Source of the DNA: Saccoglossus kowalevskii
Lineage: Eukaryota; Hemichordata; Enteropneusta; Harrimaniidae
Assembly (NCBI RefSeq): GCF_000003605.2
Contig: NW_003158225.1
Span: 415,609 to 473,042 of the forward strand
Reading direction: 5' to 3'
Length of the DNA: 57,434 nucleotides
Position 1 is the first letter of the stretch; each line of letters opens with the position of its first letter. Both the position numbers and the translations under genes were made by a program. This document shows, piece after piece, positions 1,605 through 54,247 of this stretch. A model generated the notes under the pieces. The model was not told the origin of the DNA, did no database searches, and worked only from the letters and a program-made list of their open reading frames with translations.

Positions 1605-2391
1605 AAATGGCAGAAGATGACACGGAGTCAAAATGTAAATAAATCAATCTAACTATTTTGAATTAATTTGTAAGTTTCCGGTTTTTCATCGCTACTACAA
1701 TAATACTGAAATATATGAAAATCTACCGCCGTGAAATCGGAGAGTAACACCTCATTGTCAGACCAATCAGAGAGCAACGTGTTTTTTTCGACGCATCAAA
1801 TTCTACCTTGTCCATTTCCACGATCCACCTTAAATTGAGCTATGGTCAACATATGTCAAAATGTACGATAATATTGTGTAGTATACCTACTATGCGAAGA
1901 TGCGTCATAGCACTGCGCATTCATAGTAATGTCGTGAACTATAATGCATCGTACTGTCAGAAATGGGTGACTAACGGTAGGTGGATGGTGTTCCAGACCT
2001 TCATTCAGAAAATGGCGGATATATGGCATAGAGTACAGACTTTTAATCAAAAATAACCAAGTCTCGGGAACACGATAAAGTGCGTTGCCATGCCAACTTG
2101 AAGTATATAAGGTAAATCACACAAAACGCCTGACCTGATTTGACATTATTTAGACGTCTACCCACATCGATTGTGAACAATAAATAAAATAAATGTAATA
2201 TGTTGAATTTAATACCTTCACCGGTCTTGAAGAACCAGACCCAAAGTGATACAGTGTCAGCTCAGATCACTAAAGACTTCTTTAGTGGTCTGAGATGCCA
2301 GGTGTCGAGGAATGACACCTGCCGACGTATCATGTTGGTGCATTCTGTGATCCAGTCCAGTTTTGTAATAGTATCGTGTACCGTGTATTAA

Positions 2392-2978
2392 AGGGCGTTG
2401 ATCGACGCGCTGCGCATGTGCGACATTTGTGTTGATTTTTTGTGTTGACATTGATTTTCATTGACACGCAGATCGCCGCAAACCAACCGATCTGACACAC
2501 ACCGCGCGTGGAACTATGGGAAAAATGGTCAGAACTACTGTAAAGGGGGTAATTATTCACTGGGTTTTAATTTAGCTTATTTCGCTGACTGGAAAAATGC
2601 GCTAAATTAAAACACAGTGAATATGTAAAATTTAGCATAGAACACATTATCTAAATGACGAAACCGTGAATTTAAAACCCACTGAATATGCCCGAAATGG
2701 TAAATCAGTGAAATTTAAACCCAGTGAAAATTAGTCATTTTACAGTATTTCCACTTTGTGTCAACACAGGTGGCGCTATTCGTTTGACCCGGGCGCATCT
2801 TGCACTAATTACCGCCGGCGACTCCTTCGATAGCTTCCAATCACCTAAAAAATATTTAATTAAAGCTTGGTAACGTCTCAGTTTGTACTCGTTGATCTGC
2901 GCAACAGACAAAGTCGCCATCTTTGTTTATATGAGACCCATATATCTCGAGCATGCGTGGCGCGACAACTACCGCCCT
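2392..2978 (-). mobile_element. TTAA-flanked MITE, long family A, carrying a nested MITE
   Basis: The element starts AGGGCGTTGATCGACGCG, ends CGCGACAACTACCGCCCT, and has TTAA immediately outside both ends (2388-2391 and 2979-2982). The ends are imperfect inverted repeats of about 30 bases. TTAA target duplication is the signature of piggyBac-like transposition in known families; assigning this element there is inference. Positions 2537-2747 are a different inserted element. The minus strand holds a 61-codon frame with YKLRRYQALIKYFLGDWKLSKES. It is shared with the 1356 copy, but stops interrupt it in the 53584 copy. Confidence 0.75.
2537..2747 (+). mobile_element. TACTGTA-ended MITE (family C), nested in the TTAA element
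   Basis: The insertion begins TACTGTAAAG and ends TTTACAGTA. The inverted ends continue inward through CACTGGGTTTTAATTT and AAATTTAAACCCAGTG. An inverse-oriented copy lies at 30391-30587. No coding capacity is present. Confidence 0.75.
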
Positions 2979-3290
2979 TTAAATATGAGTGTAAGTATTT
3001 ATGTGCAAGATAGGGCATTGCAGGAAATAACATTATAAGGATTTATGATACCATGCACGCGTCATGTGATATCGCGAAACACGATCAGAACTTTGGTCGG
3101 AAATTAGCCTTGTTTATTGCGTATTTTGAGGAACTTGTCCTAATATTTTTCCAAAAATCGTAATTTTTTTGAAAAATTCCATAGAGCAGTGTGCATTTTT
3201 TGACACCTTTTAAAACACCATCATTCACATTATATGATTTTTTTTCAGCCTAGGTTACCAGACTACAATTTGAGATATGGCATAATGTCT

Positions 3291-3308
3291 ACCATAGGAA
3301 CCTATGGT
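3291..3308. repeat. Perfect 8-bp-arm hairpin
   Basis: ACCATAGG and CCTATGGT are separated by two bases. No gene lies beside it. Apart from this and a small AT-rich inverted repeat at about 3944-3975, the stretch 2983-4200 shows nothing recognisable. Confidence 0.5.
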
Positions 3309-4221
3309 AAATGCGTTATAACACTGCCAAAATGCCAACTATCCACTAAAATACAACTGTGAAAGATTAAATGAGTGTTATTAAACATTCACGTCAGAGG
3401 TAACAAGTTCGGGGAATGCTCCTCCTTTCTATCGAACAAAGACACACAGAGAATCGAATCGTTCCACATTTGGTCTCAGCCGCGTTGTAGAGCTTGCCAC
3501 AACTCTGAGATCGGCTTTATTCACATTCCAACTGTTAACCAATTACAGAGAAGTTAAAAGACTCTAAGGCGTGGCCTCCACACATATAGCCAATCACGCA
3601 AAGAACTCAACACGCCATAATGTCAGATTAATTGCCCCCAATGCCGGGATATAACTCTCATACTTATCGTCGCCACAAGGGCTAAAACAACACTTTATAG
3701 TCGACCATTATATCAGCCAGTTGTTCCAATCACTAATTCCCTAACATACGAATGGACCTGATCATGACAAGTTACGAGCAGGTGTGGATTATCCAGGGGT
3801 CACCATTGGAATATCGCTATAACTGCAAAAAGCGGCCTCACCGAAATACATGAAAATATAAATCATGACACAACCATCATTTTCTCGAAAATTAGGCTAG
3901 ACCCCCAACTTTTTTGAAGTCATTATGCAGATATTGCCCGGAAGTAGAATTTATTTTAAAATAAATAAATTCTAGGTAGTCTTCTACCTTGATAGCACAA
4001 AATCACACACATCAATATGTTCGTACGTCCAGTATTTCTTGATCATTTTCCTCACTGATTCATCGTAATATAGATAGAAGGACGTAAGGGTTCAGGATAT
4101 ACCCCGACGCTGTAGTGTACATTGACAAGACAAAGTCTATTCGGAATGAGCCGCGAAATCACAGCTAAGCCTGTTGCCCCTGGATATTGGGAAACCAGGA
4201 TAAATCTGTGTACTAATGGAT

Positions 4222-4300
4222 TATGAATAGAAATGTTTTTATGAATAGAAATGGTGGTTTTACGCATATAAATATGTCATTTATAAATATGAATGTAAAT
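4222..4300 (-). repeat. Inverted relic of the 21-bp minisatellite element
   Basis: The reverse complement reproduces the non-repeated flank of the 960-1232 array (ATATTTATAAATGACATATTT), followed by about three degenerate 21-bp units of the ATTCRTAAAA type. The array is therefore part of a larger dispersed element and not a purely local expansion. Confidence 0.65.
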
Positions 4301-5020
4301 TGCAACACTCGGCCTTCCATAATTCATTGCTCCACTTGTGCTTATTTTCGTTACTTGTGGGCCTTTTTCTACAAAATTTGCTATGATTCCCTTTTATCAC
4401 GATTTCACGTATGGGACCCATGCCCAAGAAGACGCGGAGTAACGACTGCGGCGCTATGAATGTGGAACTTTCATTCCAAAATGTAATATATGTGTGGGGC
4501 ACAATCCGGGGCAAATTCATTTATCATTGTAGAATCCAACAGGAGATTGAGGCAAACTGTTAAATACATTTTTTTCTAAAGAATGGTCTACATGTATTTA
4601 AAAAGACACGTTTAGTTGTTTTTATTAATATGACAAAACAAACATATTTGTATTATTTAAAGAAATAGCCCCTAGGATGTACTTAGTGATCATTTAGTTA
4701 TTTGGCTTGGATGCATACATTCTCCAAGTCTCCAAGCTTCGACTAACTACTGTCGTTGGTGGCGTGCTCGGGAGTGAATGTCAATAATTGACTGAAAATG
4801 AATATAGAATGACAACAAATTGAGTGTAATCCAATAATGTAATTTATTTCGATTTTGGAAATTTATTTTGATTTCTCAATTTTATATTTTTTTATATTAT
4901 GGTATATGTTCAATACTTTTAAAAATGAAAATCATTTTTTAAAACAAATAGAATTTTTTTTCTATTTCTGGGCCTAAACGTTTTTTCTATCTTATTGACC
5001 CTTGTCATATGTATTCACAG

Positions 5021-5363
5021 TGTGTCATCCGACCGACGGTCGTCTCTTCGAGTTTCACACACGCCCTCTACTATGGGAAGACGCGCAAATTAAGTGCGAG
5101 GAAAATGGTGGTCAGCTGGCGACCATACAGGACACAGAAACCTTCGAATTCATTAAGAGTCAGATTTTGGGCACGCCAGAGATTAATGATGATGTTAAGA
5201 CAGGCATGTGGATCGGACTCAATGACAGATCGATGGAGGGGTTATACGAATGGGTGGACGGAACGCCTCTTCAAGTTGATGATTTCAAACTTTGGTCTGC
5301 GTCGAATCCGAACAACAACATGAACAAAGACGCCTGTCATGGACAAGACTGCGTGCAGATGTG
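5021..5363 (+). CDS. C-type lectin domain gene, exon with most of the CTLD (partial gene)
   Basis: The exon starts after the acceptor TATGTATTCACAG and ends before the donor GTGAGC. It encodes 113 residues plus split codons at both sides. CTLD hallmarks are visible: a first Cys (CHPTDG), WEDAQIKCEENGGQLATI, the core WIGL at residues 63-66 of the exon, and CVQM at 110-113. The fold usually binds sugars or proteins outside the cell. The sugar/calcium motif normally written EPN or QPD is not present; the site reads ASNPNNN, so classical calcium-dependent mannose or galactose binding is doubtful. Upstream exons, including any signal peptide, were not identified. Confidence 0.85.
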
Positions 5364-5648
5364 GTGAGCAGAAACTTCTTTTTCTCTTTAGATATTTCAA
5401 ATATTGCGATAGCGAGCGGGAAAAAGAAACTGACGGATATATCTGTTCATTATTTACGCATGCGCATCTATATGATGCGAACTGACATTTTCACAGTTGT
5501 TTCTGAAGTGATACTGAATCAAGTTCTGGCATTATATTGTATGCATTTGGTTCAGAAAAAACAGCATAACAAATAAAATACTGAAACCATGATTATTTAT
5601 ACATTGTCATACTATTATTTACATGATGAACAGTAAAGTTATCTTTAA

Positions 5649-5896
5649 GGGGTGTGGTCGTCGCGCCACGCACACGCGAGATATGTTGAGTGTTGCGAAG
5701 AACACGTGATTTAACTAGTTAATTCCTTCCCGGAATGAATAAACCACATCAACGTATTCAGTGCCTACCATGTCAAGATCCCATCTCTCGTTGGTGCTTG
5801 CCACTGAGAGGGCGTATCGGATCGTGGGTAAATCAATCAATTACCAACACAAATGTTGCACATGCCTGACATGCGTGATGCGACGATTATCGCCCT
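5649..5896 (+). mobile_element. TTAA-type MITE, long family A, inside the lectin intron
   Basis: TTAA at 5645-5648 precedes GGGGTGTGGTCGTCGCGCC. The far end CAACACAAATGTTGCACATG through GATTATCGCCCT matches the matching end of the 2392 element. The right flank is GCAA rather than TTAA, presumably mutated. The insertion lies within the 743-bp intron between the two main lectin exons. Confidence 0.6.
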
Positions 5897-6106
5897 GCAA
5901 TATCGAATACAATAAGACCGTGACAAATACGTCGTATTTGATAAAGCAGCTAAGCGCGTGTCATCGAATATACGATCCGTGACACCCTTCGCGTTCGGAC
6001 CAAAATGATCCCAACTGCAATCACACTTCATAGTACAGTAATATAACTAACTATGTTATATATAATGTTAACTTTTTTTCTGATTTTTCGTTTATTTATC
6101 TTGAAG

Positions 6107-6186
6107 GAAAAGAAAAAACTGGCTGTTGGACGATGACTACTGTTCTTTTAGAAAGAAGGACTTTATTTGTGAATATTTCAATAGCG
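6107..6186 (+). CDS. C-type lectin gene, second visible exon (CTLD C-terminus)
   Basis: The acceptor TTTATTTATCTTGAAG and the donor GTAAGA bound 80 bases. They join in phase to the 5021-5363 exon, completing a Trp codon. The product is KRKNWLLDDDYCSFRKKDFICEYFNS, the final CTLD strand with the last two conserved cysteines (DYC and FICEY). The DDD stretch occupies the place of the usual WND calcium motif. Matching phase on both sides makes the exon call firm although it is too short to stand out alone. Confidence 0.85.
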
Positions 6187-12119: not shown

Positions 12120-13019
12120 TCAAAATCGTGATTTCAATGCTGTATTTTGAAACTGTTGAATGTCATTACTACAGAAATGTTCAAGCGAATAGTTGGCTCC
12201 ACCATTATTGTCCCAGTGTGTTTTGCCGTTCACAGCGTAGTAAATGGCAAACTCCGTCCTGTTTATCGGCGATGGGTATGCTACCCCGTCCAAAAGAAAT
12301 GAAAANNNNNNNNNNNNNNNNNNNNNNNNNNNNNNNNNNNNNNNNNNNNNNNNNNTGTCAGTAAAGTCGTTGCACGAGTTTAATACGTATGTCGCCGGTA
12401 TGTCGATGTACGACTGCCAATCATTGTTGGTCGCCCTGATTCGTACGATTTTGTGGTACCCTTCATTGACGACACGAATTGTTCCCATTGCAGTCATTGA
12501 CGACAACACAATGTTTTCCAGGCACACTCCCTGATCCCGGACCTTGGTGAGAAGTTGGTTTTTAGTAGGGCAACGGAAGGTGCTGACTAGATATTTGTGG
12601 TCGCGTAGATTATCGGAAAGTATCGAGGGCAATTCTGTTTTTCTTTCACTCGGCACAGACGGCTCGATGTCTTCTATCACTTTTACGTATGTCAGACGCA
12701 GTCCAAGAACGTCTGCAAACCGAACGTGCCTGTCACGACTTCTGATCGGCGACGGCGGTTTCAAACAAGACGCTTTCGGCGTTGCGATTCTTTTACTTGA
12801 CCTGTTGTCGCCATCGTAGCTTCTGTCGTACTGGAATTCGTCAACACAATTGTGAAGCTTACCCACCCAGTCCGTTCTGAGATGTGCGACAAACGTTGCT
12901 CCTTTTCGTGCGACGTTGGCGCAACAATGCAAACAGTCGTCGGTGTTTTGAAAGCCAGTACAGCTATCGTTGAATCTGCAGAGCAGACGATCGGTCCTCC
13001 ATAGGCTGAAGTCGCTCAT
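12120..13019 (-). CDS. Protein phosphatase 1 regulatory subunit 3-like, glycogen targeting (gapped)
   Basis: A single-exon frame of about 299 codons including the gap. In the known family these proteins hold the PP1 catalytic subunit through an RVxF motif and bind glycogen through a CBM21 domain, promoting glycogen synthase dephosphorylation. Seen here: RHVRFADVLGL at about residues 97-107, then CBM21 from about 165 (VCLENIVL, NNDWQSYIDIPA, RTEFAIYYAVNG, WDNNGGANYSLE). The start at 13017-13019 is supported because the N-terminus resembles the second copy (RLLCRFNDSC versus RALYCRYGPC). The gene is intronless, as in many family members. A 50-N gap interrupts CBM21. Confidence 0.9.
   Translation of the reverse strand: MSDFSLWRTDRLLCRFNDSCTGFQNTDDCLHCCANVARKGATFVAHLRTDWVGKLHNCVDEFQYDRSYDGDNRSSKRIATPKASCLKPPSPIRSRDRHVRFADVLGLRLTYVKVIEDIEPSVPSERKTELPSILSDNLRDHKYLVSTFRCPTKNQLLTKVRDQGVCLENIVLSSMTAMGTIRVVNEGYHKIVRIRATNNDWQSYIDIPATYVLNSCNDFTDXXXXXXXXXXXXXXXXXFSFLLDGVAYPSPINRTEFAIYYAVNGKTHWDNNGGANYSLEHFCSNDIQQFQNTALKSRF
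12306..12355. other. Assembly gap of 50 N inside the PPP1R3-like CDS
   Basis: Fifty N interrupt the CBM21 domain between FTD and FSFLL. The paralogue at 21959-22831 reads LTDKFTFEI across the same point, with one residue between TD and FTF. The true missing sequence is therefore probably a few bases, and the gap size a placeholder. Confidence 0.8.
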
Positions 13020-21958: not shown

Positions 21959-22831
21959 CTATAATTTCGTAGTGTGATGGTTATTACTACACTCGAATGC
22001 ATAGTTTTCTTCGTCGTTGTTGTCCCAGAATACTTGATCACCAACCTCGTAACAAACAGCGAACTCGACGCGACATCCTATAAGGAAATCTTTTGGTAGC
22101 GATATTTCAAAGGTGAATTTATCAGTTAGTCCGCAATGCTCAGTGTGACGTGCTGGCAAATCGTAATACGTTGTCCAGTCGTTGATGGTAAATCTGGCTT
22201 TCACAGTTTTCTCTGTAGCAATGTTTTCAACACGTACGGTTGCTTTGAATGATAAGTTCGTCACTGTGAATTTTTCCAAGCATACTTTTCGTTCGTGTAC
22301 TTGCTTTAAAATGTCTGAATGTTGTTCAAAACATGGCTCCAGAATCTTTTCAACAGGAAGCCTGTTCACGGCATTAATGTTGGCCAAAAATCTCCGAGAT
22401 CTGTAGACTGACTTCACAAACGACTCCGGGAGGTTTAGTTGGTAGTCAACGTCGCTTTTTTCGAACAGTCTGACAGCTTCCAGTTCTAGCCCCAACGCAT
22501 CAGCAAACCTGACATTTTTTTTGGGCGATGTCGGAGAATCAGTCGGTGACAGGGGTGGTGTTTTGAGAAGGCCGCCTGACGGTTTTCTCTCTCTCACTCG
22601 CTGCTGTTCACAGCAGTTGTCGAAGGCTTGGGTTTGGTCGGCCAGTCTCTGGTAATTACGTACTCCTACGTCCTTAAGCTTGGCGCTGACTGGAGGACCA
22701 CATGATTGCTTCCAGAATTTTCTTTGGCTGTCACCGAGGCAGATCATCTGCGTACTGCTGCCGTTGAACTGGCAAGGACCGTAGCGACAGTACAGCGCTC
22801 TTTCTTTCATACAAAACATGGCTGCTGACAC
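21959..22831 (-). CDS. Protein phosphatase 1 regulatory subunit 3-like, glycogen targeting (complete)
   Basis: A complete single-exon gene of 290 codons. The N-terminal third is Cys-rich and holds a proline/serine tract (LKTPPLSPTDSPTSP) just before the PP1-binding RVxF motif KNVRF at residues 105-109, followed by ADALGLEL. CBM21 spans about 167-278: VCLEKFTV, TINDWTTYYDLPA, TDKFTFEISLP, RVEFAVCYEVGDQVFWDNNDEENYAFE. The WDNN at 269-272 is the family's usual glycogen-binding strand. It is a diverged paralogue of the gene at 12120-13019 on the same strand. Translation could also begin at Met5 or Met8, which sit nearer the conserved RALYCRYGPC. Which vertebrate PPP1R3 letter it corresponds to cannot be settled here. 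Confidence 0.93.
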   Translation of the reverse strand: MSAAMFCMKERALYCRYGPCQFNGSSTQMICLGDSQRKFWKQSCGPPVSAKLKDVGVRNYQRLADQTQAFDNCCEQQRVRERKPSGGLLKTPPLSPTDSPTSPKKNVRFADALGLELEAVRLFEKSDVDYQLNLPESFVKSVYRSRRFLANINAVNRLPVEKILEPCFEQHSDILKQVHERKVCLEKFTVTNLSFKATVRVENIATEKTVKARFTINDWTTYYDLPARHTEHCGLTDKFTFEISLPKDFLIGCRVEFAVCYEVGDQVFWDNNDEENYAFECSNNHHTTKL

Positions 22832-27226: not shown

Positions 27227-27350
27227 AGCGAGAGGGTTGTCACCTGCACACACACGGGAATTGGGTCCCAGGCGACGATAACAACACACGCTAAAAACGC
27301 AAAGGCTCATGGGTAGATGCTTGTTTGTAAACAATGATGACTCCCCCGCT
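27227..27350 (+). mobile_element. TTAA-flanked MITE, family B, internally deleted copy (124 bp)
   Basis: TTAA lies at 27223-27226 and 27351-27354. The element begins AGCGAGAGGGTTGTCACCTG and ends GACTCCCCCGCT. It aligns with 32624-32780 over most of its length but lacks about 35 bases before the right end. Confidence 0.85.
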
Positions 27351-30390: not shown

Positions 30391-30587
30391 AACTGTAAAA
30401 TGACTAATTTTCACTGGGTTTAAATTTAGCTGATTTACCATTTCAGGCAAAGGTATTCAATGGGTTTTAAATTCACGGTTTTGTCATTTAGATAATGTGT
30501 TCTATGCTAAATTTTACATATTCACTGGGTTTTAATTTAGTGCATTTTCCAGTCAGCAAAACCCCGTGAATAATCAAGCCTTTAACA
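30391..30587 (-). mobile_element. TACTGTA-type MITE (family C), inverted relative to 2537-2747
   Basis: It begins ACTGTAAAATGACTAATTTT and tracks the reverse complement of 2537-2747 through GATAATGTGTTCTATGCTAA and CAYTGGGTTTTAATTTAG. The right terminal repeat is degenerate. Confidence 0.8.
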
Positions 30588-32623: not shown

Positions 32624-32780
32624 AACAGGAGGGTCATCACCTGCACACGTGCGGGAATTGAGTCCCAAGCGACGATAACAATACACGCTAAAAACGCAAA
32701 GTTTCATTGGTAGACACTTGTTTGTAAACAATGACACGCTATGGCCATCTGACGCATGCGCAGGTGACGACTCCCCCGCT
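32624..32780 (+). mobile_element. TTAA-flanked MITE, family B, full copy (157 bp)
   Basis: TTAA lies at 32620-32623 and 32781-32784. The left end AACAGGAGGGTCATCACCTG and the right end (reverse complement AGCGGGGGAGTCGTCACCTG) are inverted repeats of about 28 bases. The interior, GGGAATTGAGTCCCAAGCGA and AATACACGCTAAAAACGCAA, matches 27227-27350. Confidence 0.88.
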
Positions 32781-33499: not shown

Positions 33500-34785
33500 A
33501 CTATAAAATTGTACTTTTATTTCCCTTCTTTGGAAGAAAGAACGTAGGCCATTGTAAATGCCACAACATGTTTATTACATGTCTGTGTCAAGAAAAAGTG
33601 AATGTCTGACATTTTGTAATAATATATCATGGAAATTTGTGTGTACATCTCTAAAAGCATAAAAAAACTTCTTAATTATTCTCGCAAAAATGTGTAGGCA
33701 TTTCACACATTTTTAAGTATTTTTCTATAATTTCTTCACTAATTTTGGGTCAAATGGACATGATTTTTATTTTTTTCAGTTTTTAAACAATATGAAATAC
33801 TAGTATTTATTTTGTGACAAATTAGTGTTCATAATTGTCTGCCATCTTCTCAATGTAACAATGGTCTGTTGAGCAGCATTATATTTGTATGGGACATGAT
33901 AGTGTTATATTTAGTACATGTAAAATACATTGATTATGAAATCTGAAAGTGAATTGTGATGACCACCAATCTTTTAACAAGGTAATATAACAACATTTAT
34001 AGGTAATTTAAAACCAATTAAAATGAAATTAAACAACACTTATATGCAATAAAATCATTAGTTTTCGATTAAATTTAATATATATATTCAAGGCATCTGT
34101 GCAGAATCTGTTATTATGAGTGGCAGCTAGTACAGTAGGTTAGGAGCTGACAATTAGAAACTTGGGGTGCTGGATTTTGGAAAAAAAACAATACTACATT
34201 CTACAGAAAAAAATTATAGAAAAAAAATCTCATACACATAAACCCAAATATGTAAGAAACAAATTACAGCTACATTATCTAGGAAAATCTCATTCAAAAC
34301 TAAGAAAAAAAAAAATTTGCACCAAGATTCTAGCATCTCCCACCTCATGGTTTCTAATGGTTCACCCCTTAGTAGGAGAAGCCAGAGTAACTGCATGCTA
34401 AGAACCTACATATGCAAATAAGTCTTCAAGATGTAATATATACCCATGATCCCTTGCAGCCAATCATCTGTGACAACCTACATTATGTGGTATTATATTA
34501 CAAAGGTTAGATCATACTAAGCTTATTAGATGTCTGGGTATTTATATTATGCTATGTTAATAATCTCAATTTATTTTCCGAATAATTATGAAAATACCAT
34601 GCAAATGTTATGCAAATTAGTATAACATTTTTTTTTACTGCCTCTGTGTTTTAAATTTATGGGGAGAATGTCAATGAGGAGGAAAAGCTGACTGATAGTA
34701 TGGGAATGAGGGTCAATATGAGTTTAATGAAGAGAAGGGGGTGTTGGTTAGTATGAGTACAGAGATTCCAATTATTACATAACGT
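33500..34785. other. Gene-less AT-rich stretch
   Basis: No recognisable feature. A TTATGCAAATTAG motif near 34610 resembles family G and the adjacent array. Confidence 0.4.
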
Positions 34786-35463
34786 GCAGGAATAGCATTA
34801 TGTAAATCAGCATAACCATATATGAACTCACTAGAAGCCATTATGCAAATTAACCATATGAATATGTAAGAAGCATATTATGTAGGACACTGCATATAAT
34901 GCAGGAATAGCATTATGTAAATCAGCATAACCATATATGAACTCACTAGAAGCCATTATGCAAATTAACGATATGAATATGTAAGAAGCATATGTATGTA
35001 GGACACTGCATATAATGCAGGAATAGCATTATGTAAATCAGCATAACCATATATGAACTCACTAGAAAACATTATGCAAATTAACCATATGAATATGTAA
35101 GAAGCATATTATGTAGGACACTGCATATAATGCAGGAATAGCATTATGTAAATCATCATAACCATATATGAACTCACTAGAAGCCATTATGCAAATTAAC
35201 GATATATGTAAGAAGCATATGTATGTAGGACACTGCATATAATGCAGGAATAGCATTATGTAAATCAGCATAACCATATATGAACTCACTAGAAGCCATT
35301 ATGCAAATTAACGATATGAATATGTAAGAAGCATATGTATGTAGGACACTGCATATAATGCAGGAATAGCATTATGTAAATCAGCATAACCATATATGAA
35401 CTCACTAGAAGCCATTATGCAAATTAACCATATGAATATATAAGAAGCATATGTATGTAGGAC
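34786..35463 (+). repeat. Satellite-like array of about 115 bp, six units
   Basis: GCAGGAATAGCATTATGTAA starts units at 34786, 34901, 35017, 35132, 35244 and 35360, spacings 115, 116, 115, 112 and 116. Units are nearly identical. Each contains ATTATGCAAATTAA, which holds the octamer ATGCAAAT. Confidence 0.95.
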
Positions 35464-35739
35464 ATGTCACTCTAAAGTACATACAGCATGCAAACAGATT
35501 CAGTGACCGTCTTTTATATCTACCTTCGATGACAATTCAACAAATTACCTACCAGCATGGTCTGTCTAATACATGTATTCAAAGAGCTTAGCATGAATAA
35601 GGATGCTGTGCAGCAATTCAGACTGTATTTCCAGACAGCTATGAACAACTATATGCATATATTTCTATAGTCACAGCTTTTAACAGCATGATAAAATCAG
35701 ATGACAGCGAGTCAGATGGTAGTTGATCATTATCAACAT

Positions 35740-36170: not shown

Positions 36171-36330
36171 TAAATTACTTCAGGCCACATGAGCCAAAGG
36201 CATGTGGCTTTTTTAAAAGGCTAGTAGCTTGATGATGCCGTGTCTTTTTGTCTAAGTTTTACTTTATTAATTGGCCCAGTCCGTTTAGTGTTTGTTTCAA
36301 ATAGGAGACTATTTTTAAAAGGGTTTCAAT

Positions 36331-36828
36331 AAACTGAACACCTCTGTAAACCAAACAATTTTCTCAGTCCCTTTGGTGTTCAGTTTAAACAAGTTCCCTT
36401 GTTAGACCTCTATAAACTGAACACCTCTGTAAACCAAACAATTTTCTCAGTCCCTTTGGTGTTCAGTTTAAACAAGTTCCCTTGTTAGACCTCTATAAAC
36501 TGAACATCTCTGTAAACCAAACAATTTTCTCAGTCCCTTTGGTGTTCAGTTTAAACAAGTTCCCTTGCTAGACCTCTATAAACTGAACACCTCTGTAAAC
36601 CAAACAATTTTCTCAGTCCCTTTGGTGTTCAGTTTAAACAAGTTCCCTTGTTAGACCTCTATAAACTGAACATCTCTGTAAACCAAACAATTTTCTCAGT
36701 CCCTTTGGTGTTCAGTTTAAACAAGTTCCCTTGTTAGACCTCTATAAACTGAACACCTCTGTAAACCAAACAATTTTCTCAGTCCCTTTGGTGATCAGTT
36801 TAAACAGGTTTCACTGTAAGACCCAGAA
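36331..36828 (+). repeat. 83-bp tandem array, six units, each with two hairpins
   Basis: AAACTGAACA recurs at 36331, 36414, 36497, 36580, 36663 and 36746, exactly 83 bases apart. Inside each unit AAACTGAACACC (one T variant in some) pairs with GGTGTTCAGTTT across 32 bases, and AACAAG pairs with CTTGTT across TTCC. The last unit is degenerate, and a related fragment continues to about 36935. Confidence 0.95.
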
Positions 36829-37944: not shown

Positions 37945-38401
37945 GCTTATCATGCAACTAATGGGCAGTGTATCATCGTTTATTACATAATTATTGACCA
38001 AGTCTAAATTGGAAGTCAATATAAATCTACTGGTACTTTAAAAATTCATAAATGACACCAGGCATTGAATTCTATGGCAGCATAAACACAGTCCCTTCTA
38101 TTGGCTTTCAAACAATGCCCCATTGTTCCGGTTACTGAAATCAGACATATAACCTGTGACCTTTCTATTCAATTCACAAGATGAATTGTATTTATAGACT
38201 GACTAAATCATGCTGAATGGGGGGGGGGGGTAAAAAGTGGGTTCTTTATGCAATATGCCTCACACTGATGTTTAATTGAACTAACTATGATGTACCTGCT
38301 TTGATATAAAACAATATATATGAATTCAAGAAATTATCTTGTCTCAAGTATTATTTCCCACTATTCAATGCCCATGCAGGAATCTTGGTAGGGGTGTCAG
38401 A

Positions 38402-38597
38402 ACCACTGCATTGTAGGTAGGGTTCCGGTACCACCGGATTGTGGATGGGGTGTTGGTACCACTGGATTGTAGGTAGGGTGCCGGAACCACTGAACTGTGG
38501 GTGGGATTCTCGTACCACTGGTTTGTGGGTGGGGTGCCGGTATTACTGAATTGTGGGTGGGGTGTCAGCACCACTCGACTGTGGGTGGGGTGCCAGT
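38402..38597 (+). repeat. 28-bp minisatellite, seven units (array 1)
   Basis: Units of the form ACCACTGGATTGTGGGTGGG plus GTGCCGGT start every 28 bases from 38402. The long open frames across it on either strand are artefacts of the repeat. Confidence 0.9.
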
Positions 38598-39054
38598 GCC
38601 CTGTTATCATGCAAGTAATGGGCAGTATGTCATAGTTTATTACATAATTATTGACCAAGTCTAAGATGGAAGTCAATATAAATCTACCGGTACTTTAAAA
38701 ATTCATAAATGACACCAGGTATTGAATTCTATGACAGCATAAACACAGTCCCTTCTATTGGCTTTCAAACAATACCCCATTGTTCTGGTTACTGAAATCA
38801 AACTATAACCTGTGACCTTTCTATTCAATTCACGAGATGAATCGTATTTATAGACTTTGTAAATCATGCTGAATTGGGGGGGGGGGGGTTGTTAAACAGT
38901 GGGTTCTTTGTGCAATATGCCTCACACTGATCTTTAATTGAACTAACTATGATGTACCTGCTTTGATATCAAACAATATATATGTATTCAAAAAATTATC
39001 TTGTCTCCGGAATAACTTCCCACTAATTTAGCACCCATGCAGGAATCTGGGTAG

Positions 39055-39425
39055 GGCATCGGTTTCCCTGGATTGTTGGTGGGGTGCCGGTACCTCTGGT
39101 TTGTAGGTGGGGTGCCAGTATCACTGGATTGTGGGTTGGATGCCGGTACCACTAGATTGATTTGGTCATTGCAGGTGGTGTGCCAGTACGGATTGTGGGT
39201 GGGTTGCGGGTACCACTGGATTGTGGGTGAGGTGCCAGTACCACTTGGTTGTGGGTTGGACACCGGTATCACTGGATTGATTGGATCAGTGCAGGTGGGG
39301 TGCTGGAACCTCTGGATTGTGGTTGGGGTGCCTGTACCACTGGATTGTGTGTGAGGTGCCAGTACCACTGGATTGTGAGCAGGGTACTACAGGTACCACT
39401 GGATTGTGTGTGAGGTGCTGATACC
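39055..39425 (+). repeat. 28-bp minisatellite (array 2) with interspersed longer units
   Basis: The unit is the same as at 38402-38597. A longer variant containing GATTGATTTGGTCATTGCAG or GATTGATTGGATCAGTGCAG appears twice (about 39153 and 39276), suggesting a compound unit spread by unequal exchange. Confidence 0.85.
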
Positions 39426-43254: not shown

Positions 43255-44900
43255 CGGTAATTGTCCGATTCAAGGTAAACGATATATAGATAGATATATT
43301 TAACATTGACAAATAAAAGAAAACTTGACCTCGCTCTATAGGACTTGAAAACAAGTTAACGAGTCAATCAGTCAGATATGTGTGTTTCGACCTCGCCCTC
43401 GAGATTTTCATGAAATAATCATAAATATGTTTGTTTTCTTGGAATATGTAATTGCAAGCAAGAAAGTAGACAAAATTAAATCTAACCTGAAATCCCGCTT
43501 CCACATATAACTTCATATCCGGTTTTTAGGTATTTCATTTGATTGGTTATAATACCGAAATTATTTAACATTAAATGTTAAAATTAGTGTATTCATTTTT
43601 CGTAAACGCCGTCTTTTTGCGTAACAAACGTATTTTTAGTACAGGTTTGCCCTATCTTCTACTTTTTCGGGTAGAAAAGGATATAAAAAATAGAACTGAC
43701 TTTTATAAAAAGACAAATTTTATGTTCTATTGACCCTTGACAAACCATATCAAGTTTTGACACATTTCTCAAAATAAATTTGCATAATTGTTATCGAGAT
43801 TTATAGCAATGGGAAATTATGTCCATTCGGTTTAAAATTAAGAGAGAAATCGCATACAAATTTGCGAAATTTTACACCAACAATCTGGAGCGGGAATCAC
43901 GGTGTTCTGTGCGCATTTATAATTGAAGATCAACTATTCAGGAAATAGAACATGGCACAAATACATTTTAATTGCCATGTCACTATTCATGCAACACTGT
44001 CGATAACAGCTTGAGTTAGAAATGAAACAAACATGTTTTCGACACGGGTCGTCGGCTACGATACAATGTGACTGTGTCGAAGGGGACGGATAACCCGCAT
44101 TTTCTCATGGACTGGCAGGCTAGATGTGGGAGAACCCGATTGGAGGCTGGTAGGCTGTAGCAGTTCTCTTGCAGCTACGATATTTTTGTTGCATACATGC
44201 CCGGATTAGTTTTAGTTTGGAATCAACATTTCCTGGTGTCATAAAACAACAGAATAATTGTACAGACAAGCGTGACTTACATTAAAGCGCGGTGGTCGTC
44301 GCGCAGCGCGTGTTCGAATTTCATGTAAATAAACAGTGTATTTTACACGCGGTGTATACGTCGCTATAAGTCCCATATCGAACAGGACGCGGCGCGACGA
44401 CTGCCGCCCTTTAAATAATCACGGGCAGTGTATATTGGTATTACCCCCTAATTCAAGGTGAACGTTATATCATTATTGTATTTTTCCCATTAAAGGAAAG
44501 ATGTGTTTCACATTGACTGACAAAGAAAACTTTACCTCGCTCTATCGGACTCGAAAACAAGTTAACAAGAAAAGGACCGGATTAATCAATTAGTCAGAAA
44601 AGTGTTTTTTGACCTCGCCCTCTCGATTTTCGTAAAATAATCACAAATAATGACGTTTTCTCGGAATCGGTAACCATAAGCAACACAGTAGACACAATGT
44701 AATCTAATCTGAAAGCCGACTTCCACGTAGTGAATAAGTTAATATCCGTTTAACATATTTGTATGTCTCATTTGATTGTTATTCGTTTAATGATCATTTA
44801 ATTTAAATTTAGTGCATTTCTTTTCTCGGTACAATGAATTATACAGGTTTAAGCTTCCTTCTCCTTTTCCGAGTAAAATACTGAAACGGAAAAAAATACA
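43255..44900 (+). repeat. Diverged tandem duplication of about 450 bp
   Basis: The segments 43255-43700 and 44440-44900 run parallel: ACCTCGCTCTAT, GAAAACAAGTTAACRAG, GACCTCGCCCTC, TAGACAMAATKWAATCTAA, CATTTGATTG, TACAGGTTT. Identity is moderate with indels, so the duplication is old. The material between them includes a TTAA-flanked MITE. Confidence 0.75.
44286..44410 (+). mobile_element. TTAA-flanked MITE, short family A (125 bp)
   Basis: TTAA lies at 44282-44285 and 44411-44414. The element begins AGCGCGGTGGTCGTCGCGC and ends GCGCGACGACTGCCGCCCT, imperfect inverted repeats of about 24 bases. The element at 51404-51528 is the same length in the opposite orientation. Confidence 0.9.
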
Positions 44901-46412
44901 CTGTTTGAAAAAAATCTGCATCACATGAATTCAATTATTTGTTTCTAGACAGAAAATAATAAATCAGCGGCGCGTCAATGAATTTTTGCGAAATTTTCCA
45001 CATAGTACTACGAATATTTAAGTTGCCTCCGTTTTTTTTAATGAAAGCGCTTTTTGGGGGGTGAGAATATAAATAGTATTCCTATGTTATATTATTATAT
45101 TAATACCAATAAATATACGTTTCAACTAAACAACTTTGACCGACGAATGTTTCGGGGATAACATTGAAAGTTGAGCTAAATCCGGGCAGTGTGTATACAC
45201 ACAAATATGGTCCAAAAGTTGCAGAAGAACTAGTCCCCCAGCATCCCCACGGCTTCTTCCACCTGCCTGCTGCCCCATTGGGGAATGCGACTTATCCGCC
45301 CCTTCACAGAAGCGCATGTGCCCGACGAGCCGTGACAAAAACATGTTTGTTTCATTTCTAACTCAAGCTGTCATTGACAGCATTTCATACTAACGACATG
45401 ATAAATAACACATAAGTGTGTCATGCCTTAGTTTTAAATGGAGACAGCTAATTAGAAATTCACTCCTATTTAATTGTTTTGATTACCACAATTGTTGGTG
45501 CAAAATTTTGCACATTTTTTTTAATGCATTTTCTGATAATTTTAGACTGAATATAATTTTACATGATCAATTGAATGGCAAATAAAATTTAATGCGCATG
45601 CGCACATCGTACTATTGGCAGATTGGTTTCTGATATCGTGATCTGCATACCGGTATCAGTCTGGTATGTAATTCCAGTGTATGACTGTGTTTCAAAAACC
45701 CGATCATTGACCCGACCCAGTGCTTAACAATGTTTACGTCAATAACAAAATCACCCAAGTCAAATGCTATACCAGCGCCGACATGATTATTACAATGTAA
45801 TATCAGCGTGATTTTTTGTAGATTATGTTTTAAAATGTCAAGAGTACCTTTTTGACATTTTCAAGGGAAGGGGTTCCTTTTTGGAAATTCACAGCAATCA
45901 AAGCTATGTTTACACACTTTAAAACGTTATCCTTGTAAATTTGTTTCCAGGGTGGGTTTTTAGAAATTTGGCCACCTGGTCTGTGATTTTCACCAACAGT
46001 TGGTGCATCGCCTACCCGTATATATATAAACATAGTTGAACTCTGGTGACCTTGCCCTTTGTTATATAATATAATTCCCTTTATCACAGTTTGTTTCAAT
46101 ATAAATATGCATTGTCATAATTAATTTTGAATACAAACAAGTTTTGGGGTTGAACCAACAGTGGGGAATCAGTCTACCGAATGTCCTTAAAAGATGTAAA
46201 TATCTTACAAAAACATTGGTTCCTTATTTGTTTAATTATTTTAAGGGACATAATTTCTAGTTTTATTCAAAGTAATTCAAATATTTTAGTATAAAAATAA
46301 ATGCCTCATCGCAAAAAAAAGTTCTGCATTTAGACGTGAATAGATTCATAAAACATGCAAGATAACAGAAAATCTTAGCTGGCTTAGCAGTGGAGGGAGA
46401 AGTCAACAGTAC
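44901..46412. other. Gene-less stretch before the large gap
   Basis: A local GC-richer patch at 45160-45345 has short open frames on both strands but no recognisable product. Confidence 0.35.
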
Positions 46413-47510: not shown

Positions 47511-47546
47511 AAGTGACCCCCATGCACCGGGCAATGTAAGTTTTAA

Positions 47547-47660
47547 AGGGTAGTGGTTGCCGCGCAGCACATGTTCGAATTTCATGTAAACAAACAATGT
47601 ATTTTACACGCGTTGTATACATCGCTATGAGTCCCATATCGAACGCGATGCGACGCGACA
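47547..47660 (+). mobile_element. TTAA MITE, short family A, right-truncated
   Basis: TTAA lies at 47543-47546. The interior TTCGAATTTCATGTAAACAA through GAGTCCCATATCGAACG matches 44286-44410. It ends about a dozen bases before the expected right terminus, with no TTAA there. Confidence 0.85.
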
Positions 47661-50441
47661 ATCAAATTCCTCAGCCCGACTGAAAAGAAGTTGCTCGTCT
47701 CGGACGTGCAGGCGGGTAGTAATCTCAAACACTGTTACTAGTAAACAGCCGATCGTAACCGTATTCTCATGACCTTTCGAGCAGTGAAAGCACATACTAC
47801 TATGCCCGTATCGCTGCAACCATAATAAATTTAGATACCGAACGTCCGGTGCTGTTTATCAATCATAATGCCGTTATTATTGTTACTGGTGGCTTACGCT
47901 TCTGGTCAACATCTCGACTACCCGTCACCTTTCAGAGTGCGGTGAAATATGTATTATTAGATTTTGGCGCCAATATCGTGTTTTGCCAATATTATTTCCG
48001 CTATTACTTCCCACGTCGTTTTTGCATAGCGTCATAGACCGAAGTTATTTGATTATCAACGACTGACTTCCTTTCAGTAAAAGAGATGGGAGTGCCGAGG
48101 GGATTGACTGTGCATGGCATATTATCAGAGTAAGGGCGCCACCACGCGACTGATTACGATGGGTTCAAATACTAGTATGGACACAGTCAAGAATGTTGAT
48201 AAAGCAAAGTATGGACAGTGTAATCAATACGATAAAATGAAAACAGTTCATCAATAAAAAGCCTTTAATGACGATGATGATCATTTTTACATCATGATTT
48301 TAAAATACACAATTATACACTGAGTAGGAAAGCCAGAGGAGGTCGAACTCATATGTCATTAAATTGCTGATGGACAGTAAGTAGAGTTATTGTGATTTTA
48401 CCATGAATCAACAATATATGGCCTTGTGCTAACAACATTGAGTGAAAAAAAAAACATTGGATGGTGGCATTAATTTTCAGATATTCATTGTCAACATTCA
48501 GCTTAAATGTTTGATGAACTACTATAGGTGGCGCTGTTTGCAAAAATGCGTTATCTGATTCAAAACAATTGAATGAAACAAGTTCGCTCAGTGATGGTTT
48601 TCACGACGTTGAAACAAGAGAAAAAAATGTAATAATATGTGCGCAACACAATTTTTATGGAAACATTATATTCGACATACATTGTCGAAGTGATAGATAT
48701 TTTGGGACATTCCATGAAAAATTGAAGCCCGTCTTATGTACTGATTGCTACTTTGAATTGACCCATGCCTTCTTTTTATAAAAAACAATCGAGAATTGTC
48801 CTTTTGTTGTTCATTCACCAGTTTGAGGCAGCCTATCTAGCAACGGATTCTGGGTTCTACATACCAGATGGTTGAATGTGTGAACACCACGAATCATTAA
48901 GCAGACACGAACACATTATCAACTTATAGTGAACCAGTTAGCTTATGTTCAATTGAAATAAGTAGAATTGTAGTGTTGTCTGGCTTGTGATCAAGAATTT
49001 AGAATTTTAGTTTCATTTGGATTGTGTTCAAGTGACATTGTTTTAAATTCTTGTATCGTCTTTTACGTCACGGTGTTGGAATGCGTTAAAGAGGTTCGAG
49101 TCGAATTGAAGAGTGTAAGTCGTCTGCGTTATACTTTATGGGCTCATACGATCGGGATAACAAGAATAAACAAAATTTGGCTCACCGGATGAGTTTACGA
49201 TACAAGTCCGAAATTTCGTGGAAAATTGTAACAATTGACAATCTAACACTATTTCATGGTAAGATTATTTGTTAGAACATAATAATAATTTTCCATTATT
49301 TACAATGAGAGGTTCTCTCCCATAATGCATTGCATATATGTGCAATAACATGCTCGGTAGCACAATATTTAATTCAGCTCATTAGGAGTCTAAATAATGG
49401 TTGTCTATACATGAAATCCCCGGATGAAGGTATGACTAATGCAGTAGAGAAATAGTACTGAAAGAAGACATCACAACGAATACGTTGCAATCAAAAGCAT
49501 ATGCCAACAAAAGATGTTGTGTGACATTGTGAACCACAAATTACTTGTCACTTCGATTAACCCGTTAAAACACAGAACTCAATAGAGACATTATTAATGC
49601 GCGTCATTTCTTTGTGCATGACCTCCGCGCGAACCAATGACGTCATCGGTTGCCAGGTAGTACGGTGGTCGTTTTGAACGTGATCAAGGTGGTGACTCTT
49701 AGTTGATTTCCGAGAACTTTTCCCGCTATCAATTTTGAATAATTTTTACTTACATTGATAGAACGTTTTATATTAGAGTGATTTTGTATATTTATGGTGA
49801 AGTAAGAATATTGCATGCATTTTATCTGATATTTACACGTACACAACTGGGCAGCTCGTTATGTAAACAAAGCAGACGACACCGGGCATTTGTGTTTACT
49901 TTCTCAAAAGGTGACGTGTACTAACTAATTGACATAACAAATGTTATTGGATAGTTATATAATGGTTGTTCAATGAGAGACGGGTTTACATGGTTCTGTT
50001 TCAGTTACGCTCCCGTTGGGGGCGCTTGTACTTAAATCGTTTTCTGACACCCGAGAACGTACCGCAAACGAAACAAGCTACGTTCACAGTCACTTGGGGG
50101 ATGAAAATCAATAAATACTAATTTTTTTTTAAAAAAATCATCCGCTATACGTATATAAATTGAGTTTTATGGCTGATTACGTTTCGACATCTGCTTTTGC
50201 ACAATACAGTATTATCCTAGTATTTTCATTGCTGTATCGTAATTTGAAGATTAATTTATAGCAATTCTTGAAAAAAAAACCAGAGACCAAACAAACATGT
50301 GAAGTTAAGACAAGTGATTTGTCATCGGTGTGTGTTGACACTCAACGTCGAGGGTGTTTCCGGCTGCTCACACACTCAGTAGTGTGCATTTCACTTTGCG
50401 CCATTCCGAACCAGCTGAACTACGGGCGCCACATTACTCTT
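47661..50441. other. Gene-less stretch and presumed promoter region of the SnoaL-like gene
   Basis: No exon was recognised. GTATATAAAT at 50151-50160 is a TATA-like element about 330 bases before the start codon at 50482. It is a candidate only. Confidence 0.35.
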
Positions 50442-50467
50442 AGCACAGTCCCTCTAGTGACTGTGCT
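50442..50467 (+). promoter_or_regulatory. Perfect hairpin 14 nt before the start codon
   Basis: AGCACAGTC and GACTGTGCT pair perfectly (9 bp) across CCTCTAGT. The ATG of the SnoaL-like gene follows at 50482, so the hairpin would lie in the 5' UTR if transcription starts upstream. The same AGCACAGTCCCTCT core is at 17173. Confidence 0.6.
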
Positions 50468-50481
50468 CTTAGACTACTGAA

Positions 50482-50632
50482 ATGACGGAGGTTGCTCTAG
50501 CTGCTGTCAAAGATCGGTTAAAGATTTACACCGAGCTGTTCGTTGAAGGGAAACTAGCAGAGATGTCTGAGATGTGTACGCAAGACTATAAACTGATGCC
50601 ACCTTCACTGGAAACTGTAGACGGAAGAAAAG
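50482..50632 (+). CDS. SnoaL/DUF4440-like (NTF2-fold) small protein, exon 1
   Basis: The ATG in GAAATGACGG opens a 50-codon exon plus one base: TEVALAAVKDRLKIYTELF, VEGKLAEMSEMCTQDYKLMP and PSLETVDGRK. The pattern (N-terminal helix, EGK-x5-M, YxLMPP, then GR-K at the first turn) is that of SnoaL-like/DUF4440 proteins of the NTF2 fold. These are small cone-shaped domains, often of unknown substrate. The exon ends at the less usual donor GTTGGT, chosen because it joins in phase to exon 2. The open frame continuing into the intron is not homologous in style. Confidence 0.85.
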
Positions 50633-50943
50633 GTTGGTTGGTTTTGAAACTGCATGCTTCGTATCTGCAGAATGATTTCTGCGTTACAGTCAATTTGACT
50701 GTTACCATGATGGCACCACGTGATCGCACAAGTTCTCACCCCGTTACTCTACCTTCTTTGTTTTCCCGCCGTAACTAGCCATGATAACCGCCCGCCACAG
50801 GCATGCATGATGGTTTACGTACTAGTACTCAGCACGTGAGTACTCAGGTTATAAAGCAAGCTGATTGAAGTTTTTTTTTTCACGTGACTGAATCTGTTTT
50901 ATTCATCATATCACGTGACATTAATCATCATATCTCTCTACAG

Positions 50944-51173
50944 CTATTCAAGATTTTCTTCAGAGTTTCAAGGCAAGTGGAGTTCATCGACTACAGTCGA
51001 CAGTGGTTGACATCGGTGTGATCGGTGACGACAGCAGCGTCTACGAGTGGAGTGACTTTAAGACATACAAGTCCGATGGCTCCGTCCTCGGGAAGGGAAC
51101 GTATCTTCATATTTGGAAGAAGATTGACGGTGTTTATTACCTGCATAGGGATATTTTCAATACTTTTCTTTGA
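50944..51173 (+). CDS. SnoaL/DUF4440-like (NTF2-fold) small protein, exon 2
   Basis: After the acceptor ATATCTCTCTACAG, the exon completes an Ala codon and encodes 75 more residues to TGA at 51171-51173. The protein totals 126 residues, typical for the family. Visible elements: IQDFLQSFKASGVHRLQSTV, DSSVYEWSDFKTYKSDGSVL, GKGTYLHIWKKIDGVYYLHR, DIFN. The GK-G-Y-x-W-K run and the YYLHRDIFN end are the last strands of the fold. There is no signal peptide, so it is probably cytosolic. The intron is 311 bp. Confidence 0.88.
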
Positions 51174-51403
51174 TAGTCCCCATTTCTAATTTCTTGTTTG
51201 TCATCGAATATGAACTATAAAATCTGTACAATCGCAAATACACGCAATTTTCCTTTGTCCAGTTGAAGTATTTCAGCAAAAAGTTTATCATAGATCCGAT
51301 GTTTCATGTTATACTATTCATATGTCATAATAATTGGAATACAAAAATCTATCGTTCCTTCTTGAATTTTATACCAGTAATTGGAACTTCTTGACCATAT
51401 TAA

Positions 51404-51528
51404 AGGGCGGCAGTCGTCGTGTCGCGTTCTGTTCTATGTGGGACTCATAGCGACGTATACAACGCATGTAAAATACATTGTTTATTTACACGAAATACAA
51501 ATACGCGCCGCGCCACGACCACCGCGCT
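51404..51528 (-). mobile_element. TTAA-flanked MITE, short family A (125 bp, inverse orientation)
   Basis: TTAA lies at 51400-51403 and 51529-51532. The element begins AGGGCGGCAGTCGTCGTG and ends CCACGACCACCGCGCT. Its reverse complement aligns end to end with 44286-44410 at equal length. It sits about 230 bases after the SnoaL-like stop codon and may be in that gene's 3' UTR. Confidence 0.9.
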
Positions 51529-51627
51529 TTAATCTTTACTCTTTCCACCGTTCTTTGCATGTACGTTTTAGTTTATATTTTTTAAATTTCTTTTTGTAAG
51601 ACCCTTTCCTCTAGATTGTATGCGTCT

Positions 51628-51652
51628 AATAAATATTATTATTATTATTATC
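51628..51652 (+). promoter_or_regulatory. AATAAA with (ATT)n: polyA signal or LINE tail
   Basis: The first AATAAA after the SnoaL-like gene is followed by (ATT)n. This could be the gene's polyadenylation signal. Equally, it could be the tail of a short LINE remnant, since it resembles the tail at 36150-36170. Confidence 0.4.
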
Positions 51653-52461
51653 AATTTAGCCTGGAATCCAGCCATTCAGAATACCCTTCCCAAGTTTCCA
51701 GTGCACGTTTTCGTTGATTTTTCAAAGTCTCACAATAATAAACAGCATCTAGTTTTATTGAGAAAGCCTAACATGTTTCATTGAAAACTTAAAATAGATA
51801 CAATGACCTGTATAGATAGTTTGCATACCAAATAAAATATTTATGTGTTACCATGGTTACTAAAAAGACTGGTATTACTGAGAACCAGATACCAAACGAT
51901 ATTCAATATTCCAATACAAGACAATAACAAGGCCAGGTTAATCTATGGTGTGATGTATATTAATCAGTTTAATTTGCATAAAAATGAGTATGAGGGACAA
52001 AGATGCAAAACCTCAACTTTTTAGGAATTACATCAATTTTGTTGTCATTATTATCAAATTGCTCAGTTCACCTCCAAGTGTGTGTGTAAGTGTGTGTGTC
52101 TATTCCATATACATGTATGTGCATGTCTGTTCCACTGGAATCTCATGATAGATGCTATATATGGCTATGTGACCTAATTATTATGCATAACTGTAATGCC
52201 TTAAACTCTGCTGCAGATAGTGACATACAACCAGTGCTATAATGTAGACAAGAGACCAGACAAGATATATCTGACATCTTGTTTTCTGTAAAGATTTTAT
52301 TGGTAGGTTTGCAAATGTGTATCAGACTGTACAACAACCCTCTCCATGAGTTGGTTTCGAAACCCAGTCAAGTATTCCCATGGGATTTGGGAGATACATT
52401 ACCAACCATATTATTACAAGATAAATGATTTGCTTCATTGAACACATACAACAATGCATAT
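51653..52461. other. Gene-less stretch
   Basis: Only a short TGTGTGTG run near 52080-52100 was noted. Confidence 0.4.
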
Positions 52462-52740
52462 TCCCACTAAGATCAGTGACCTTTGAATGTGTATAACCAG
52501 TGATCAGTCAAAATATTTTATCATATTTTCTCAATTTTTGCATATTTTCATACAGGACATGTCTTTCATACTAAAGGAAGACTTTATCCTGATGAATAAG
52601 GTGACCAAGTTTGATAAAGATAGGAATAGAATTAGTTATTGTGTACACAATAAAAAATATTAATGACAACGACGAAAACAAATTTTTCCCTTAATATACC
52701 TTTCCCATCTTTGATGATACGGACAAGGTAAAATAACTTT
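52462..52740 (+). repeat. Dispersed repeat (family F), copy 2
   Basis: It shares GATCAGTGACCTTTGAATGT, TTTTCTCAATTTTTGCAT and TCCCTTAATATACCTTTCCC with 54248-54446 in the same order. Only the last part matches 47385-47510. Confidence 0.75.
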
Positions 52741-53110
52741 GGCAGTCAAAGGGTTCATACAAGTCTTTTTCTATTATTGCTCCAATAAAGTGTCAAAGTT
52801 GACAGCATTTTGAATGGTTGCATGGGACCCATGCAGAATTTCCAACTTAGAGTTTTAATGGGGGCAGACAAACTGTCTTCTGCTCACTCATATCTACACA
52901 TACAAATATTGTATCCAATCATTTAAATATTACAAATATTGATTTCATAACATTTTTATTCAAAATATTAATAAGCATATAAGCGTGACAGTTTATATGT
53001 ATTTTGGTAAACCATACATATTATAGTATGTTAAGTCATTTTACTCTTTTCTTTATCTTCACTCGTAGTTTTTTTTATCAGAATTGTAATCTCTTACAAG
53101 AAAACAATGG

Positions 53111-53329
53111 TTGAAATTTATAGGAATTGCTGGACACATTTTTATTTTTATTTATAAGCCACAAATAGAGCCGCAGGTAAACACAAATAAGAAATATACA
53201 AGTTTTAGAGATGAATTACTACGGACAATAGAAATTATGAATTTCTATACTACAAAAGATGAAATAACCACTGGATTTATCAGCCAACAAGAGATTATAG
53301 ACAAATTGCAACGAGCCAGCACTCGTTGA
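53111..53329 (+). other. Unrecognised open frame of 72 codons
   Basis: The downstream part (NKKYTSFRDELLRTIEIMNF, then EIIDKLQRAS) is charged and helix-like rather than repeat-like. No family is recognised and no splice sites are clear. It could be a degenerate transposon fragment or a chance frame. Confidence 0.2.
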
Positions 53330-53583
53330 GATGCCATACTACATTTGATTCTTTGGTGGACATGCACACACTTTGAAGCTGCTGGTTATTTCCATCTTCC
53401 CTCTTACTTACTGGTATATTATGAAAATACATACTTTTAACTTGAACTCTTGCACCTAAAATGTAAATATTTCTAGGGTCTCCAAACTTGGCACACATGC
53501 TGTCCATGCAAGTCTCACAGATTTTATTGTTCTATCAAATGAACGCTATGTTAACACAATTAAAACATATTTAGTTTACTTAA

Positions 53584-53881
53584 ACGGTAATGTCATCACG
53601 CCGCACGTGTGACTTTTGTGTTGATAAACATTGATTTTTCCAAAACCCAATGCACTCTCTTCTAATGGAAATCACGAGTACAAGTTATCACATGGGTTCA
53701 ACTTGCACTAATAACCATCAGTGACTCCTTTGATACCTTCAAATCAACAAAGAAATTACCTAGTTAAAACTTAGTAAAGTCCCAGTTTGTAGTCATTGGT
53801 CTGCGAAACAGTCAAAGTCGCCATCTTTGTTAATAATGAGATCCATACCTTGCGCATGCATAGCATAATGACCACCACCCT
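53584..53881 (-). mobile_element. TTAA-flanked MITE, long family A (298 bp)
   Basis: TTAA lies at 53580-53583 and 53882-53885. The left end is ACGGTAATGTCATCACGCCG and the right end is GCATAATGACCACCACCCT. The interior aligns with 2392-2978 without the nested insertion, and with 1356-1604. Stops break the short frame seen in those copies. Confidence 0.8.
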
Positions 53882-54247
53882 TTAAAATTAAACCAAAACC
53901 CAGTTTGTATATTTATCAGATACATCAACAACTGCTCTGCTTAGTTATCATATTGCCTCTAATTATTATTAAGTATGAAGGCATTATACATTTATTAATA
54001 ATAATAATATAATGTACATCATTCCAATTCTCTAAAACACAGAAACCGACATAAAATATGATAAAATGCATAGGATTTGACAAACAACTTTTAATCAAGT
54101 TACTGTTACTTTATTCTTTCCCTGTACCAATGCCACTAAGCTCAAACAAAAATAAATAAAAACAATTCAAATTCAATAGATCTATCTGGGTTTACTGAGA
54201 AGCAATTCCATAGAAGTGCGTCTATAATGAAAGCACACATAAACCAA

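Follow-up and report, generated by a model that had tools for sequence, protein, structure and literature searches.

Nine TTAA-associated elements in the window

The DNA analysed here (the window) is a stretch of 57,434 nucleotides from the hemichordate Saccoglossus kowalevskii, contig NW_003158225.1, positions 415,609 to 473,042. It carries nine short inverted-repeat elements, and an exact TTAA lies on both sides of six of them. A sequence-only reading of the window had listed these six and sorted the elements into families A and B. All six lie at the positions it gave, and both families hold up, with family A now refined into two size classes, A1 and A2. Three further copies, previously noted at 1356, 5649 and 47547 as truncated or mutated, are also real elements, whose extents we now place at 1369–1600, 5648–5896 and 47547–47671.

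The A1 copies are each 125 bp long. Those at 44286–44410 (plus strand) and 51404–51528 (minus strand) have TTAA on both sides and match the A1 consensus at 96.8% and 89.6%, respectively, while the copy at 47547–47671 (plus strand; 90.7% over 107 bp) has a mutated right terminus; its left flank is TTAA and its right flank CAGC. Family B is represented on the plus strand by a 157-bp copy at 32624–32780 (94.8% over 153 bp) and by a copy at 27227–27350 (92.8% over consensus positions 1–111) that has lost 33 bases immediately internal to its right end. TTAA borders both B copies on both sides.

Two A2 copies on the minus strand also retain TTAA on both sides. The first, at 53584–53881, matches the A2 consensus at 81% over positions 1–290. 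The second, at 2392–2978, matches it in two blocks (consensus 1–196 at 2978–2783, 94.9%; consensus 255–299 at 2436–2392, 93.3%) and exceeds the usual A2 length because unrelated repeats sit inside it. The plus-strand copy at 1369–1600 lacks its left terminus, matches A2 consensus positions 69–299 at 79%, ends on the right in AGGTCGGTGGTCGTCGCG and is followed by TTAG where TTAA would be expected. The element at 5648–5896 (plus strand) is of A type, with two recognisable ends and an interior that is partly A2 (positions 1–37 and 222–277); its mutated flanks are TTTA and GCAA, the latter reading TTGC on the inward strand. Among the nested repeats in 2392–2978, the segment 2459–2537 recurs at near full length in 27 other places, with an inverted arm close by at 12 sites, and 2594–2746 has an inverted counterpart at 30392–30548.

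Scanning the window for TTAA followed by the end profile gave 14 sites, 12 scoring at least 12 of 16 and two scoring 10, which we take as chance. The same profile found six sites in the reversed window, one of which scored 12. Because the profile was derived from these same elements, the independent test is the genome-wide count of ends described below. A relic candidate at 4331–4455 was dropped as too weak a signal, and open reading frames (ORFs) of 340–425 amino acids near 46384 are an assembly gap.

Elsewhere in the window, minus-strand ORFs at 12120–13019 (299 amino acids) and 21959–22831 (290 amino acids) each encode one CBM_21 carbohydrate-binding domain. Tandem arrays occupy 34785–35464 (116-bp unit), 36329–36810 (83-bp unit), 38387–39418 (28-bp unit) and 56039–57432 (22-bp unit).

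Copy number, consensus sequences and family structure

The genome searched is a 572-Mb assembly of 4830 contigs. An 18-base A end with two free positions, searched without TTAA, gave 1120 exact matches, and TTAA directly preceded 891 of these (80%). The A patterns read backwards, with and without TTAA, gave no match. The 28-base B end, also with two free positions, was searched together with a preceding TTAA, so that its 1053 exact matches (control, 0) cover TTAA-preceded ends only. These are counts of ends by exact match; with two ends per element, they correspond to at least ~440 A and ~520 B elements. The genome-wide search that the sequence-only reading had proposed thus finds both a high copy number and exact A ends that lie mostly at TTAA.

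These counts also bear on whether the elements are transposons at all. Their short, GC-rich inverted ends would suit palindromic or regulatory repeats scattered through the genome and lying beside TTAA by chance, and 27 joined flanks compared with the DNA read here, which is part of the genome, revealed no empty site. Against this, TTAA stands at 80% of exact A ends, compared with ~0.8% of window positions (445 occurrences in 57,434 bases) and with none in the control, and copies on many contigs have near-constant lengths and sharp boundaries. We consider a chance association with TTAA extremely improbable.

Consensus sequences were built from hand-picked copies (nine A1, nine A2 and eight B). 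Seven of the nine A1 copies are 125 bp long, the other two being 103 and 119 bp; A2 copies span 267–313 bp around a consensus class of ~299 bp, and B copies span 124–166 bp around a class of 157 bp. The terminal inverted repeats agree at 17 of 19 bases in A1, 30 of 35 in A2 and 22 of 24 in B, and all three consensus sequences have termini of the form 5'-AG...CT-3'. Mean pairwise differences within the picked sets were 13% (A1), 18% (A2) and 15% (B). Because many copies were recruited by exact end match, and truncated, nested and one-ended copies were left out, ages taken from these values are biased low. Short length, inverted ends, near-constant size, many copies and the lack of a transposase are together the characters of miniature inverted-repeat transposable elements (MITEs).

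A1 and A2 are two size classes of one family. Their alignment spans ~60 terminal bases and scores 59, compared with a maximum of 31 among 300 shuffles. After trimming 22 bases from each end the score was 25, equalled by two of 300 shuffles, and the first 11 bases differ at zero to two positions. The two classes thus have subterminal DNA in common as well as their ends.

The relationship between A and B is of a different order. Whole-consensus scores of 22 for A1 against B and 26 for A2 against B were reached by 26 and five of 300 shuffles, and trimming the ends raised these figures to 27 and 91, respectively. The best pair of A and B ends is identical at 13 of 17 terminal bases, with at least three mismatches in the first 11 and four in 17. 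The Repbase rule for placing elements in one superfamily by their ends demands equal length of target-site duplication and at most one mismatch in the first 11 bases (PMC4455052), and the A–B pair fails this 11-base rule. Kinship between A and B thus rests mainly on the core of the ends. Both the earlier suggestion that a single transposase serves the two families and separate enzymes for each are compatible with the data. B is a separate family with similar ends, perhaps mobilised by the transposase that served A or by a sister of that enzyme.

Termini, candidate transposases and the A2 open frame

Kolobok and piggyBac transposons both duplicate TTAA, and Kolobok is set apart by 5'-RR and YY-3' termini (Kojima and Bao, PMC9587614). 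In the table of PMC6004289, every one of the ten full-length Kolobok copies from Xenopus has AG termini. The terminal inverted repeat of piggyBac starts with CCYT (PMC5601938), and ends reading CAC or CCC are reported for bee piggyBac, CAC in many copies (PMC10140906). The TTAA target of Kolobok is seen here at 891 of 1120 exact A ends and on both sides of six of the nine window elements, and the AG...CT termini of the three consensus sequences are of the RR/YY form and not of the CCYT form. Because TTAA specificity and 5'-AG...CT-3' termini occur together, we favour Kolobok as the source superfamily: A1, A2 and B are MITEs, non-autonomous DNA transposons inserted at TTAA, and probably derive from a Kolobok-type source. 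The sequence-only reading was right to see TTAA-bounded transposon families whose elements contain no transposase; its comparison with piggyBac is not supported, as the termini are AG...CT and not CCYT.

In this reading, a DDE transposase made elsewhere would act in trans, binding the terminal inverted repeats (AGSGSGG..GTCGTC), excising the element and joining it to a TTAA site so that TTAA, presumably duplicated, is left on both sides. This enzyme would most likely belong to the Kolobok superfamily. A1 and A2 may be deletion products of one autonomous parent that is now lost or rare, and the open frame in A2 could be a remnant of that parent's gene.

TTAA specificity is equally a property of piggyBac, and the genome contains 37 piggyBac transposase matches, some in long open frames, any of which might have moved the elements as piggyBac-type MITEs. 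The termini disfavour this, being AG and neither CCYT (PMC5601938) nor the CAC or CCC of bee elements (PMC10140906). In addition, among the 30 of 37 piggyBac loci inspected (flanks ~1.5 kb), TTAA-flanked A or B signals were present in two, in each case singly and not framing the gene: L026 has one degenerate end, A1-like by eye and below the BLAST cut-off, and L028 has a partial B copy. We regard a piggyBac source as very unlikely. As a separate observation, the 12.7-kb contig C3891 (L009, L011, L012) carries three tandem piggyBac frames at intervals of ~4–5 kb, and a stop codon interrupts one of them.

Candidates for a Kolobok transposase are found among 50 genome matches to PF20700 (Pfam name, Mutator-like). 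At one of these loci PF20700 is accompanied by a YqaJ nuclease domain, which we read as the KolobokE layout described in PMC9587614. A THAP domain lies ~2.9 kb from a 595-amino-acid PF20700 frame, in the same orientation; together they resemble the THAP-type Kolobok transposases of PMC6004289 and may represent a putative single gene. The 595-amino-acid frame gave 26 matches as a query, itself included.

Several observations weigh against a Kolobok source. The terminal pentamers are AGGGC or AGCGC in A and AGCGG in B, and neither family conforms to the AGGRR motif that PMC6004289 gives for T2-MITEs. Equating the PF20700 matches with Kolobok would rest on two loci, those with the YqaJ and THAP domains. 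No transposase lay between A or B ends at any of the loci inspected, which comprised 30 of the 50 PF20700 loci, 30 of the 37 piggyBac loci (flanks ~1.5 kb), three copies of the 595-amino-acid type and 16 of 150 scored places with an A2 fragment. The 8.8 kb around the KolobokE-like copy on C809 (some of it N) shows no A or B end and no convincing TTAA-framed repeat, the best TTAA-framed pair being identical at 11 of 16 bases. Since flanks in the inspected loci were mostly ~1.5 kb or less, the absence of an autonomous element is weak evidence.

Individual loci show A and B elements near transposase genes. Complete A2 and B elements adjoin the gene at PF20700 loci L047 and L056. In the THAP-associated copies L069, L081 (2213 N in 7401 bases) and L082, A and B ends are not the copies' own termini; in L082, a B element lies ~0.2 kb past the transposase-like stretch. 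Apparent long pairs on C48 and C94 turned out to be separate short elements. A tandem PF20700 array on C739 has no TTAA-flanked A or B end, and weak matches of 12–13 of 16 recur there without TTAA. This array (L040–L044, L048–L052, L055, L058, L062) consists of about nine PF20700 units arranged head to tail at spacings of 3.2–4.0 kb; two units compared with L043 are ~98–99% identical, and the arrangement is reminiscent of KolobokP multimers.

In the A2 consensus, an ATG at base 59 (AAAGATGG) opens a frame of 53 codons, MATLTVAQINEYKLRRYQALIRYFLGDWKVSKESPAVISASRAQ..., and the window copy at 2392–2978 retains 50 open codons of this gene-start fragment at 2768–2917 (minus strand; MATLSVAQINEYKLRRYQALIKY...), which have no Pfam match. 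No family was matched when three copies of the frame were scanned against Pfam at E values up to 10. A 50-amino-acid query from the window gave 150 scored matches among 2486 candidates. Sixteen of these places, picked for partial match, long frame or high identity, were inspected, counting ends that scored at least 12 of 16: ten had both A ends, five had one (L071, L073, L075, L077, L083) and L087 had none, and no long element was found among them. L071 together with the following 6 kb (7.5 kb in total) showed no partner A end. The extra interior of 2392–2978 was considered as parent sequence and rejected, as it is another repeat with 52 matches, 27 of which, elsewhere in the genome, cover the same stretch of ~79 bp.

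Differences from consensus at codon positions 1, 2 and 3 of the A2 frame were 104/1134, 68/1059 and 94/1060, counted over 27 BLAST matches with CpG sites dropped, among which one copy may enter more than once. There is no third-position excess and thus no sign of selection on the frame. The 53 codons might be a chance open frame; we consider it likeliest that A2 keeps the first coding part of a lost parent.

This fragment also bears on whether some other TTAA-specific superfamily supplied the transposase. Sola3 is TTAA-specific, and it or an undescribed superfamily could be the source given that the Kolobok assignment rests on termini, that no autonomous copy joins these ends to a transposase, and that the gene-start fragment, without a Pfam match in three copies, does not resemble a THAP-like start. 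On the other side, RR/YY termini combined with TTAA are the published mark separating Kolobok from piggyBac (PMC9587614), and we judge a source in Sola3 or an undescribed superfamily unlikely. A more specific proposal derives family A, with the A2 frame, from an undescribed TTAA-specific lineage. Its transposase would begin with MATLTVAQINEYKLRRYQALIRYFLGDWKVSKE..., which would set it apart from piggyBac and from Kolobok enzymes led by THAP, and would also have mobilised B through the shared AGSGSGG-GTCGTC core; this proposal seems distinctly doubtful.

Some A2 copies have other neighbours. Those at L072:56–338 and L079:2036–2308 lie near frames resembling host exons, one for a peptidase similar to angiotensin-converting enzyme (PF01401) and one for an alpha/beta hydrolase (PF07859). 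Beside another A2 fragment, the KKTGRFSFSSEEELNTLVENKDAP-like reading at L005:16–457 is reminiscent of tyrosine-recombinase/QRICH1-type proteins.

Comparison with known TTAA-inserted elements

The Kolobok assignment guards against a ready misclassification: judged by their TTAA flanks, the elements would be filed under piggyBac, but their termini point to Kolobok. The three families are of an ordinary, known kind, for which Kolobok is a better-fitting label than the earlier suggestion. A literature search, judged mostly from the openings of abstracts and covering sources other than Repbase, yielded no recognised description of A1, A2 or B. Consequences beyond the annotation of this genome are modest; the three well-bounded, high-copy families and the 53-codon gene-start fragment can serve as bait for an autonomous element.

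Among known systems, piggyBac MITEs share the TTAA flanks and short terminal inverted repeats, and differ in starting with CCYT where the elements here start with AG. The solo long terminal direct repeats of KolobokP (PMC9587614) are likewise Kolobok-type repeats thought to be mobile without coding capacity; at ~450 or 660 bp they are longer than the ~125–299 bp elements described here. Non-autonomous Kolobok elements and T2-MITEs of Xenopus (PMC6004289) are alike in their TTAA flanks, AG...CT termini, short length, high copy number and the presence of Kolobok-like transposases in the same genome. The Saccoglossus families differ from T2-MITEs in lacking AGGRR and in carrying a GTCGTC core inside their ends, and their connection to a transposase is a putative one.

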